Positions 54,717 to 57,331 of a stretch of 64,000 nt of DNA are shown here, piece by piece (position 1 is the stretch's first letter; every line of letters starts with the position of its first letter). Source of the DNA: Streptomyces sp. NBC_00536 (lineage in GTDB: Bacteria > Actinomycetota > Actinomycetes > Streptomycetales > Streptomycetaceae); contig NZ_CP107819.1 in NCBI RefSeq assembly GCF_036346295.1, positions 3,906,001 to 3,970,000 of the forward strand, read 5' to 3'. The position numbers and the translations under genes were made by a program. The notes below the pieces were generated by a model. It was not told the DNA's origin. It worked only from the letters and a program-made list of their open reading frames with translations, and did no database searches.

Positions 54717-54775
54717 GTACGGCTCCTCTCCGTTCCTTCTTCCGTTCCCTCTTTGCCATGGGAAGCGTGCACAAA

Positions 54776-54796
54776 GTTGAGTCTATTCCACTCAAG
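54776..54796. promoter_or_regulatory. HAIR element (HspR operator) before clpB
   Basis: GTTGAGT-CTATTCC-ACTCAAG; 13 of 14 arm positions match the HAIR consensus CTTGAGT-N7-ACTCAAG. Confidence 0.85.
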
Positions 54797-54846
54797 GGGG
54801 AGCCAGGGGCGGAACGGGCCCCGCGAACTCGTGCGCCGCGGCCTCG

Positions 54847-54852
54847 TACGCT
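54847..54852 (+). promoter_or_regulatory. -10 element TACGCT of the PPOX gene
   Basis: TACGCT, 7 nt, ATG 54860; leaderless. It is 51 bp from the clpB HAIR element on the divergent side. Confidence 0.55.
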
Positions 54853-54859
54853 TCGGCGC

Positions 54860-55264
54860 ATGTCCCATGACGTACTCAACCCGACGGCCGACTACCTCGC
54901 CTTCTGGCGGGAACGGCACGTGTGCACGCTGACCACCCCGCGCCCCGACGGGACGCCGCACGTCGTGCCCGTGGGCGTGACGTACGACCCGGAGGCCGGG
55001 GTGGCGCGGGTGATCAGCAACAAGCACAGCAAGAAGATCCGCAACGTCCTGGCGGCGGGGCCCGAGGGGGTGCGGGCGGCGGTGTGCCAGATGGCGGGGC
55101 GTCGCTGGGCGACGCTCGAAGGGCGCGCCACGGTCCTCGACGACGGGGCGGCGGTCGCCGAGGCGGTGGAGCGCTACGCGGAGCGGTACGGACGCGTCCC
55201 GTCGCCCAATCCGGACCGGGTCGTCCTGGTGATCACGCTCGACCGCGCGATGGGCCGCGCCTGA
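54860..55264 (+). CDS. PPOX-class (split-barrel) flavin or F420 protein
   Basis: A 134-aa split-barrel protein of the pyridoxamine-5'-phosphate-oxidase superfamily, in the F420-dependent branch: VCTLTTPRPDGTPHVVPVGV, ISNKHSKKIRNV and WATLEGRATVLDD. The branch reduces or oxidises varied metabolites with F420 or FMN. It is divergent from clpB and may respond to the same HAIR region, but that is only proximity. A strong hairpin follows. Confidence 0.85.
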   Translation: MSHDVLNPTADYLAFWRERHVCTLTTPRPDGTPHVVPVGVTYDPEAGVARVISNKHSKKIRNVLAAGPEGVRAAVCQMAGRRWATLEGRATVLDDGAAVAEAVERYAERYGRVPSPNPDRVVLVITLDRAMGRA

Positions 55265-55388: not shown

Positions 55389-55432
55389 CACAGCGGCGCC
55401 ATCGTGTTCAGGTTCACGATGGCGCCGCTGTG
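55389..55432. terminator. Bidirectional terminator after the PPOX gene
   Basis: An 18-bp perfect stem beginning CACAGCGGCGCC with an 8-nt loop, between convergent genes. Confidence 0.85.
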
Positions 55433-55475: not shown

Positions 55476-55799
55476 TCAGGCACTGCGGGGGGTGGCGGAG
55501 GTGACGGTGGTGGCATCGGGTTCGAAGAGCTGGTGGTCGCGCTGATCCAGATTGACGAAGACCATTCCGTAGCGCACCTCGCAGCGGACGGGCTGCGGCG
55601 CACCGCGCGGGCGGCGCAGGCAGCGGTAGGCGCGGACGTCCTCGTCCTCCTCGCGCACGACGACGATCGGCTGGCCGAAGAGGGTGACCATCAACGAATC
55701 GCCAGTGTGGGGGATGGCCGTGACGAGATCGATGAACTGCCATCCGGAGCGGTACGCGGATGCCATTTCGCGACGGAAGTCGCGGTCGTCGGGGGTCAT
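55476..55799 (-). CDS. Rieske-oxygenase-like fragment without cluster ligands
   Basis: A 107-aa protein that reads like the N-terminal part of an aromatic-ring-hydroxylating oxygenase: SGWQFIDLVTAIPHTGDSLM, TLFGQPIVVVREEDEDVRAY, then RCLRRPRGAPQPVRCEVRYGMVFVNLD. The Rieske pattern CxH(x~16)CxxH is not there; two Cys remain in RCLRRP and VRCEV, so a 2Fe-2S cluster is unlikely. Its ATG overlaps the stop of the repeat-peptide gene (ATGA), so the two are translated together; its job may be to bind or process that peptide. It could also be a decaying gene. Confidence 0.55.
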   Translation of the reverse strand: MTPDDRDFRREMASAYRSGWQFIDLVTAIPHTGDSLMVTLFGQPIVVVREEDEDVRAYRCLRRPRGAPQPVRCEVRYGMVFVNLDQRDHQLFEPDATTVTSATPRSA

Positions 55800-56074
55800 G
55801 AGGCCACCGCCTCGGGCTGAGAGGTCCATCCTGTGTCGCCTCCGGTGCCTTGCGGTGCATCGGTCCAGCCCGTGTCGTCCTTCAGATCGTTCTTCAGAAC
55901 CGGCGCACTGGTCCAGCCGGTGTCGAACGATGTTCCTGCCGGCGCACTGGTCCAGCCTGTGTCATAGCTGGCCCTAGCGCTCCCCGCGTCAGTGTCGACG
56001 GCGCTTATTGCACCAAAAACGGCAACGGCGGAGAAAACAACGGCAAGCGCCGAGCGAAGCATTCTTTTGTACAT
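55796..56074 (-). CDS. Secreted peptide with four DTGWT repeats
   Basis: A 92-aa protein with a Sec signal (residues 1-25, hydrophobic run ALAVVFSAVAVFGAISA) and four copies of an 8-residue motif: DTGWTSAP at 38-45 and 51-58, DTGWTDAP at 67-74, DTGWTSQP at 80-87, separated by short variable spacers. Nothing else is in the mature part. That is the layout of a multi-copy precursor (signal or surface peptide), but it is not a family I recognise. It lies between a divergent LuxR regulator and the coupled Rieske-like gene. ATG 56074 gives the signal peptide; GAGGA lies upstream. Confidence 0.7.
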   Translation of the reverse strand: MYKRMLRSALAVVFSAVAVFGAISAVDTDAGSARASYDTGWTSAPAGTSFDTGWTSAPVLKNDLKDDTGWTDAPQGTGGDTGWTSQPEAVAS

Positions 56075-56176
56075 GGTCGGCTTCGTCCTCACTTGATGGA
56101 ATCCTCTCCCCCGCGTGTCCGACGATGGCTCATTCAGGCACGTCACTGCCACAGGGACGATGCATCATGTTCTTGC

Positions 56177-57259
56177 ATGTTCAGGACCCTGGGGGGTGGA
56201 GATTTGCCCAGAAGCGGCACAAACGAGACACATCCCCACCCCGTCACGTCTCTGTGTGACGAGGGAGCGCGTCTCTACGCGGCGGCGCTCAGCACGGGCC
56301 GTATCGCAAGGGGAGAAGTTGAAAACGCCCCCTGCCTGCTTGAATTCGCTCTTCTGCAGCCCGATCCGGACGACGCGAACCAGCTGCGTCCGGTTCCCCC
56401 ATCCGTCGCATTGGCCCAACGGCTGCATCCGATTGAACGCGAGATCCAGGACCGCCGACGCAGCGCTGTAGATCTCACCGACGCTTTCGAGCCGTTCCTT
56501 ACCATCAGCGCCCAGAGTCCCGCCAACACCCACGCCATCACCGTGCTGGAGGGCTTCGAGCGGATCAACGCCGCCCTGAACCTGGCCACCGCCGAATGCC
56601 ACACCGAGGTGCTGACGGTCCAGCCCGGCGGCGCCCGGCCCTCGCTGGCCCTGACCCAGGCGCTGGAACGCGACGCGCCGCTGATCGACCGCGGGGTCAG
56701 CATACGGACCCTCTACCAGCACACCGCGCGGCACAGCCAGGGCACGCTGGCCTACGTCGACCGGATCTCCGCGGGCAAGGTGGAGATCCGCACGCTGGAA
56801 GAACTGATAGAGCGCCTCATCATCTTCGACCGCACCGTGGCCTTCATCCCCGCCAGCGACGACCGGCGGGTGGCGCTGGAACTGCGCCACCCGGGTCTCG
56901 TCGAATACCTCATCAAGGTCTTCGAGCAGCTCTGGCGGCGCGCTGTGCCCCTGCGCCAGGAAGTGACGTACCGGCACACCCCCGAGGGGATTTCGGGCGT
57001 CCAGCGCTCCATCGCGCAGCTCCTGGTGGAGGGGTACGTCGACGAGGCCATCGCCCGGCGGCTCGGGATGAACGTACGGACGGCCCGCGCGCACATCGCG
57101 AAGCTGGCCACCGTCCTGGGCAGCGGGAGCCGCGCGCAGCTCGGCTTCCTGATCGCCCAGTCGGGGATCCTCGACGGACCGGGCAGCCTGCCGGGCGGCG
57201 GCGGACTGACCGCCGAACACGACCCGGACCCGGACCTCGGCCCCGGCCACCTCGTGTGA
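56177..57259 (+). CDS. LuxR-family regulator with a PLD/TrmB-like middle
   Basis: A 360-aa regulator. N-terminal part LCDEGARLYAAALSTGRIAR, APCLLEFALLQPDPDD is a degenerate HTH region; the middle (NTHAITVLEGFERINAALNL, RGVSIRTLYQHTARHS, KVEIRTLEELIERLIIFDRT) resembles the PLD-like domain of TrmB regulators; the C-terminus is a LuxR HTH (GVQRSIAQLLVEGYVDEAIA, MNVRTARAHIAKLATVLGS). This architecture is frequent beside small secreted-peptide and RiPP genes in Streptomyces. ATG 56177 is chosen as the first that retains the family N-terminus. It is divergent from the DTGWT peptide gene. Confidence 0.8.
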   Translation: MFRTLGGGDLPRSGTNETHPHPVTSLCDEGARLYAAALSTGRIARGEVENAPCLLEFALLQPDPDDANQLRPVPPSVALAQRLHPIEREIQDRRRSAVDLTDAFEPFLTISAQSPANTHAITVLEGFERINAALNLATAECHTEVLTVQPGGARPSLALTQALERDAPLIDRGVSIRTLYQHTARHSQGTLAYVDRISAGKVEIRTLEELIERLIIFDRTVAFIPASDDRRVALELRHPGLVEYLIKVFEQLWRRAVPLRQEVTYRHTPEGISGVQRSIAQLLVEGYVDEAIARRLGMNVRTARAHIAKLATVLGSGSRAQLGFLIAQSGILDGPGSLPGGGGLTAEHDPDPDLGPGHLV

Positions 57260-57294
57260 ACACGGTCGTGTGAACGCGGTCGTGTGAACGCGCG
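57253..57294 (+). repeat. Three tandem 14-bp units at the LuxR 3' end
   Basis: CGTGTGAACGCGGT-type units, the first containing the stop codon of the LuxR gene. Confidence 0.85.
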
Positions 57295-57331
57295 AAGGCC
57301 CCGCCCCCCGGGCAGGGGGGCGGGGCCTTCG
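57293..57331. terminator. Bidirectional terminator between the LuxR gene and hspR
   Basis: A 17-bp stem CGAAGGCCCCGCCCCCC with a 5-nt loop, between convergent genes. Confidence 0.85.

Follow-up and report, generated by a model that had tools for sequence, protein, structure and literature searches.

In the 64,000-nucleotide stretch of Streptomyces sp. NBC_00536 DNA analysed here (the window), a set of three genes lies between clpB and hspR (Table 1). Reading the minus strand from 56074 to 55796 bore out the preliminary description of a secreted-looking precursor with four copies of DTGWT, which is 98 residues long in its protein-collection form (P0001), where it begins at the in-frame GTG at 56092. 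The N-terminus of the precursor is signal-like by rule of thumb only, and the leader resembles a plain signal sequence. As had also been described, the TGA of the precursor gene and the ATG of the gene for a 107-residue Rieske-oxygenase-like protein overlap as ATGA, and a LuxR/TrmB-like regulator gene diverges from the precursor gene, starting at 56177 (ATG) or 56204 (TTG), ending at 57259 and encoding 360 or 351 residues. The further claims, that the set is isolated between clpB and hspR and bounded by terminators, held in part. Perfect hairpins stand on both sides of it, and both are likely to act as terminators, although a terminator scan of the window, which called other sites, named neither of them. 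The hairpin-bounded set does not have the interval to itself, however, since the gene for an F420/PPOX-type oxidoreductase also sits between clpB and the set. In S. violaceoruber NRRL S-981 (locus L080), there is no space for the F420/PPOX-type gene at this position.

Table 1. Features of the interval between clpB and hspR, with positions counted from the first letter of the window
Feature	Position	Strand	Basis or remark
Secreted-looking precursor	55796..56074	-	92 aa from ATG; signal-like N-terminus, then four pentapeptide cores
Core copy 1, DTGWT	55949..55963	-	Read from sequence; unit from conservation
Core copy 2, DTGWT	55910..55924	-	Read from sequence; unit from conservation
Core copy 3, DTGWT	55862..55876	-	Read from sequence; unit from conservation
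Core copy 4, DTGWT	55823..55837	-	Read from sequence; unit from conservation
Rieske-oxygenase-like protein, 107 aa, without cluster ligands	55476..55799	-	Sequence, Pfam, alignment, model
Divergent regulator (winged HTH, TrmB/PLD-like sensor domain, C-terminal LuxR/NarL-type HTH), proposed receptor	56177..57259	+	Profiles, model, co-variation
Conserved intergenic element CCTGnAnnTnCAnGAACATGATG, candidate operator	56163..56185	-	Alignment of 25 sequences
18-bp perfect hairpin 3' of the Rieske-like gene	55389..55432		Sequence
17-bp perfect hairpin in the gap from regulator to hspR	57293..57331		Sequence
F420/PPOX-type oxidoreductase gene separating clpB from the three-gene set	54758-55264	+	ORF reading

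A protein search with the precursor listed 43 precursors (E ≤ 0.01), including that of the window, and the named source organisms were all Streptomyces. Scanning named genomes with the Rieske-like family confirmed at least 483 stretches, of which the best 80 were fetched; 79 came from named Streptomyces and one from an 'Actinobacteria bacterium'. In all 80, a short secreted-looking ORF with a tryptophan-containing core, read by eye, ended no more than about 35 bases from the Rieske-like start, and a divergent regulator 60.6–98.3% identical to that of the window was present. The expectation that the three genes stay together was thus upheld throughout the fetched loci, and neither of the sequence-based outcomes that the preliminary description had named as speaking against it, a lack of repeat-bearing homologues or their occurrence in unrelated contexts, was encountered.

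The Rieske-like marker was matched at E ≤ 1e-3 in 256 of 295 Streptomyces genomes, or in about 247 once nine weak matches are discounted (six within frames of 414–551 aa, three judged on E-value alone). In sister genera none of 51 genomes matched at E ≤ 1e-6, and a class-wide survey found matches in 33 of 246 genomes, 20 of them Streptomyces with full-length matches and 13 others with partial ones (frames of 377–646 aa). In ten Streptomyces genomes lacking the Rieske-like gene, the top regulator match was at most 42% identical, and three of these genomes had none at E ≤ 1e-30. Because the Rieske-less genomes examined are also without a close regulator, the precursor, the Rieske-like gene and the regulator appear to be gained and lost as a unit. 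In four divergent loci (L143-L146) the Rieske-like protein has diverged, and the peptides, each with a single core copy, end in QDPAWD or QDPTWG. Tandem extra regulators of the same family occur at the clpB-hspR site in many Streptomyces (for example at L080:2657-5694), more than one match being present in 30 of the 80 fetched loci, and in one species an extra family regulator lies on the far side of clpB (L062:9644-10693).

Rule-based extraction yielded 80 precursors (from 79 of the 80 loci, plus the window) containing 235 cores; locus L041, which the rule missed, was added by hand for the co-variation analysis. The extracted precursors of the 79 loci are 50–135 residues long, a few thus exceeding 100 residues, and 11 of the 80 are single-copy (55–62 residues as extracted). 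The core word varies by species, occurring as DTGWT, DSGWN, DSGWG, DSGWR, DLGWD, DVGWG, EPSWG, EPTWE, DSTWV, DTSWP, DPGWH, NSSWP and others, with the more deviant FTEWP in the single-copy precursor of L066. Within the 69 precursors that have two or more copies, however, the word is nearly uniform, identity among copies being 0.98 for D, 0.99 for x1, 0.98 for x2, 1.00 for W and 0.89 for x3, against 0.19–0.47 in the flanks (0.35 at -1, 0.24 at +5 and 0.47 for a partial proline at +7). Taken together, x1, x2 and x3 showed an identity of 0.958 within precursors (n = 330) compared with 0.293 between them (n = 24646). The constrained unit, as delimited by this conservation, is the pentapeptide DxxWx. 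Several identical short peptides from a secreted-looking precursor, as first proposed, remain a fitting description of the repeated word, but the octapeptide unit DTGWTxxP was rejected, since conservation stops at x3 apart from the partial proline. Recent duplication was likewise rejected as the source of the uniform cores: the spacers have diverged, and among identical core residues the third codon positions agree in 0.69 of cases while the first and second agree in 0.98. The copies are therefore old and the spacers between them have drifted, and selection preserves a single word in each precursor.

The structural model of the regulator (pLDDT 86) consists of a winged HTH, a long helix, a PLD-like domain and a C-terminal HTH, the domain names being taken from profile and fold searches. 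Its relatives of known structure are TrmBL2/TrmB, members of the PLD family and LuxR/NarL-type HTHs, with TrmBL2 matched at a profile E of 1.9e-10 and a fold E of 2.4e-14, and TrmB at a fold E of 8.9e-8. Among 18 regulator family members, the Pfam TrmB family matched two and a C-terminal GerE-type HTH all 18 at E ≤ 0.01; the LuxR-type HTH of the window's regulator lies under the Pfam cut-off (17.9 versus 23.5 bits) yet is clear by profile (NarL, DevR). The regulator is like TrmB and TrmBL2 (5bpd, 3qph, 2f5t) in its N-terminal winged HTH, long helix and PLD-like effector domain, but it adds the C-terminal LuxR/NarL-type HTH and is paired with a peptide gene. With LuxR/NarL-type regulators it shares the C-terminal GerE-type HTH, whereas neither an autoinducer-binding nor a receiver domain was found among the families matched by the 18 members. 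The intergenic region (56041-56260) is unusually conserved across the genus in an alignment of 25 sequences, well past the palindrome within element CCTGnAnnTnCAnGAACATGATG. This element is a candidate operator; in L047, L054 and L075, but not in the window, its first 14 bases read as a perfect palindrome. Searching the genome with the element gave one exact match, the local one, and no regulon emerged: the 18 other matches all carried 3 mismatches, compared with 10 matches for the reversed control pattern.

The genome of the window contains 17 regulator matches at E ≤ 1e-3 and 13 by profile at E ≤ 1e-20 (both counts including the regulator itself), and several of these paralogues adjoin secreted-looking peptides with other leaders and similar cores, namely DTSWG, ETGWG, DVGWN and, twice, DAGWQ. 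Under a strict rule, which accepted a peptide within 1.5 kb, 26 of 104 non-clpB regulators were paired, or 23 after removal of L156, L177 and L214, where the peptide overlaps or lies inside the regulator. About 1.5 would be expected by background, and as the rule was composed after examples had been seen, 23/104 is an enrichment over background rather than the outcome of a blind test. The background was 400 kb drawn from six Streptomyces genomes in 20 stretches of 20 kb, each placed at a round coordinate; by a first rule, 9 of its 154 signal-like ORFs carried [DE]xxW and 11 of 154 ended in W or Wx, and the strict rule accepted 2 of 326. Eleven of the 23 peptides end in the core, in 11 a core lies no more than one residue from an AxA-like site, loosely defined, and nine have tandem cores, among them DNNWP six times (L250) and DTSWG twice in another family (L219). 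The pairs occur in Streptomyces and in other families, the 23 not all being independent (L235/L236 and L248/L250 are near-copies), and the peptide genes are mostly divergent or convergent to the regulator, with L246 on the same strand. Looser peptides end in DTMGWS, DTWGWG, GNIWA, STIWG, DSGIGWD or DGIIWD.

Pairing was concentrated among the nearer regulators, occurring for 20 of 63 at E < 1e-75, 3 of 21 at intermediate values and none of 23 at weaker ones (107 rows, not deduplicated). No accepted peptide was present beside 81 of the 104 paralogous regulators, the very close L085, L155, L158, L160, L162 and L166 included. Fifteen loci of a remote regulator branch gave no convincing peptide, and among 20 remote-regulator loci the one convincing peptide was that of L318, a re-read of L218. 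A set of regions downstream of regulators, meant as a negative control (17 of 67 with the motif), was discarded as invalid because it contained convergent peptides.

We determined how the core co-varies with its neighbours in 80 of 81 sequences, one with too little clpB being left out, using 2000 permutations. Core distance correlated with distance in the middle (sensor) domain of the regulator with r = 0.78, in its N-terminal part with 0.68 and in its HTH with 0.32, and with the Rieske-like protein and ClpB with 0.31 each. Given ClpB, the partial correlation of sensor domain and core was 0.76 (p 0.0005) and that of the HTH weak (0.17, p 0.0005); the ClpB–core partial given the regulator was -0.22. 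The possibility that an E-type clade alone drives the correlation was rejected, as the sensor partial was still 0.64 without its 11 sequences (n = 69), 0.75 after dereplication (n = 40) and 0.65 with both measures applied (n = 35). In an independent replicate of 29 loci, whose regulators are less than 97% identical to the first set, the sensor partial was 0.53 (p 0.0005) and the Rieske-like partial 0.20, the cores being alike at 0.84 within and 0.25 between precursors; here precursors were extracted by rule from 53 of 54 loci, L107 giving none. Since the sensor domain co-varies strongly with the core and the Rieske-like protein weakly, we take the divergent regulator, ahead of the Rieske-like protein, as the peptide's most likely partner.

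We therefore favour, with a probability of roughly 0.7, a locus that encodes a linear peptide signal together with its receptor, similar in logic, although not homologous, to RRNPP peptide quorum sensing, whose members include Rap-Phr, NprR-NprX, PlcR-PapR, Rgg-SHP and PrgX. The precursor would be exported by Sec, and extracellular peptidases would free from it several identical DxxWx pentapeptides, the unit marked out by conservation. An oligopeptide permease would return the pentapeptides to the cell, where they would bind the PLD-like sensor domain of the TrmB/LuxR-type regulator, the domain that co-varies with the core. Binding would then change how the regulator occupies the shared promoter region and other genes, those of secondary-metabolism control among them, and the Rieske-like protein may be an accessory of the clpB-locus channel. 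As some paralogous regulators are paired in the same way, several such channels may run in parallel within one genome.

The co-variation would be accounted for equally well if the regulator sensed unexported or partly processed precursor, as a measure of export capacity or of stress near clpB and hspR, with no peptide passing between cells. The nearby heat-shock genes, and a regulator model in which no membrane segment is apparent, are consistent with such an intracellular ligand. Only the five-residue cores are kept identical, however, and not their flanks, and the repeats, the C-terminal cores (11/23) and the AxA-like sites (11/23) of the paralogous peptides fit the release of a short peptide, all of which makes this reading unlikely.

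A signal and receptor in contact also have to be distinguished from a linkage artefact, in which leader, core and most of the regulator have been swapped as one DNA cassette. This would be consistent with the leader following the regulator as well (partial 0.76 given clpB), and with a signal that fades along the regulator gene toward its distal, C-terminal part. In 20-residue windows of the regulator, the partial with the core was 0.34–0.52 in the first 60 residues, 0.42–0.70 over 51 to 270 and -0.08 to 0.28 past 260, where some of the sequence is nearly invariant, although residues 321–350 do vary and still gave -0.08. Against a cassette, the Rieske-like gene, within a few bases of where the precursor gene ends, tracks ClpB (0.81) and follows the core weakly (partial 0.10, p 0.03; 0.20, p 0.0005, without E-type sequences; 0.19–0.26 at the DNA level), whereas the sensor domain, beyond both leader and promoter, follows it strongly. 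Moreover, the same sensor stretches gave 0.65–0.76 for amino acids as opposed to 0.05–0.28 for synonymous sites, which add nothing once amino acids are taken into account (-0.02), a contrast made weaker by the partial saturation of the synonymous sites. We consider exchange of a cassette without contact distinctly unlikely.

The Rieske-like protein bears on a further reading. Its Pfam Rieske match is under the cut-off (17.2 versus 20.3 bits) and stops at profile position 40 of 88. The ligands of a Rieske [2Fe-2S] cluster are held in CxH and CxxH motifs; in an alignment of 18 Rieske-like sequences, read by eye, the cysteines are not strictly kept and histidine is absent from the ligand positions. 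A functional Rieske protein was accordingly rejected, in agreement with the earlier view of an oxygenase-like protein without cluster ligands. Searching with the structural model (pLDDT 74) gave oxygenase alpha subunits (four chains at E ≤ 0.001), and the alignments exceed the protein's own length, as would happen if it had lost a portion of the domain. The protein resembles the alpha subunit of Rieske non-haem oxygenases in N-terminal sequence and beta scaffold but is without part of the cluster subdomain, the ligands and the catalytic domain. Its C-terminus, TPRSA (55476-55493), is invariant in all 18 aligned sequences, an unusually fixed end for a small protein.

A conserved leader followed by several core copies, together with the coupled oxygenase-like gene, would suit a multi-core RiPP or antimicrobial for which the Rieske-like protein serves as a maturation helper and whose production the regulator controls. 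We regard this as improbable: the leader looks like an ordinary signal sequence, the ORFs read between clpB and hspR included no recognisable modifying enzyme, protease or transporter, the Rieske-like protein lacks ligands and co-varies weakly with the core, and no Rieske-like match was found in the fetched flanks of the paralogous regulator–peptide pairs. A modified peptide product, which the preliminary description had entertained, is for the same lack of a recognised modifying enzyme and of cluster ligands not indicated. Repeats are common among exported surface proteins, but a secreted structural or wall protein with tryptophan repeats, along which the regulator merely travels, is very improbable given single-copy precursors (11/80), cores that are species-specific yet internally uniform, and a sensor domain that co-varies far more at the amino-acid than at the synonymous level.

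How does a DxxWx signal and receptor relate to known systems? The RRNPP criteria (PMC10075063) are a propeptide of 10–100 residues, Sec export with exopeptidase maturation, a receptor of 250–500 residues, tetratricopeptide repeats and adjacent genes. The propeptide (92 residues) and receptor (360 or 351 residues) of the DTGWT locus fall within these sizes, their genes are adjacent in 80/80 loci, and a short linear peptide is the apparent active unit. In contrast, the DxxWx receptor combines a TrmB/PLD-like fold with a LuxR-type HTH and gives no TPR match, no TPR family being among the 25 families shown for 18 regulator family members, and the system is actinobacterial, with multi-copy cores and genes that are mostly divergent or convergent. 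Because the receptor has a TrmB/PLD fold instead of TPRs, we do not file the system as RRNPP. PMC10075063 assigns peptide signals to Firmicutes and small molecules to Actinobacteria. In S. coelicolor, an oligopeptide signal imported by BldK, an Opp-type transporter of the kind proposed here for DxxWx peptides, controls development and antibiotics (PMC11303876). No description of a DxxWx peptide/regulator system was found in a search of open-licence papers, which did not cover preprints.

The locus can be connected to S. coelicolor physiology through a close relative. The locus of S. violaceoruber NRRL S-981 runs from clpB through the Rieske-like gene, the peptide gene and regulators of 338, 329 and 349 residues to a next gene, the fetched stretch ending before hspR. 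We take the gene after the three regulators to be ATP-grasp-like. In S. coelicolor, clpB is SCO3661 and hspR SCO3668 (PMC2631018), and the list of LuxR-type regulators in PMC3282765 gives SCO3665 and SCO3666, with 327 and 394 residues, and not SCO3664. Because two genes separate clpB from the regulator in the relative, the gene count points to SCO3664 as most likely the S. coelicolor orthologue of the divergent regulator. In PMC6585502, a transposon insertion in SCO3664 ('regulator') is among the mutants with more than 50-fold, some with more than 200-fold, higher actinorhodin; complementation restored 12 of 16 regulator mutants tested, a figure for the group and not for SCO3664 itself. SCO2686, a LuxR-type regulator of 338 residues, is another down-modulator (PMC6585502; PMC3282765).

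In conclusion, we put at slightly better than even the chance that DxxWx peptides constitute an unrecognised class of ribosomal pheromones in Streptomyces and some related actinobacteria, species-specific and uniform within each precursor, read by receptors of a kind new to peptides (a TrmB-like sensor joined to a LuxR-type HTH) and present as several channels per genome, with the clpB-hspR channel of most Streptomyces helping to gate antibiotic production. The co-variation of core and receptor makes the reading of the signal directly testable with cheap peptides. If the proposal is true, the DxxWx cores would be sequence candidates for the BldK-imported oligopeptide signal, five-residue synthetic inducers or inhibitors could be made for silent clusters, and a peptide channel in most Streptomyces would amount to a second language for the main antibiotic producers.
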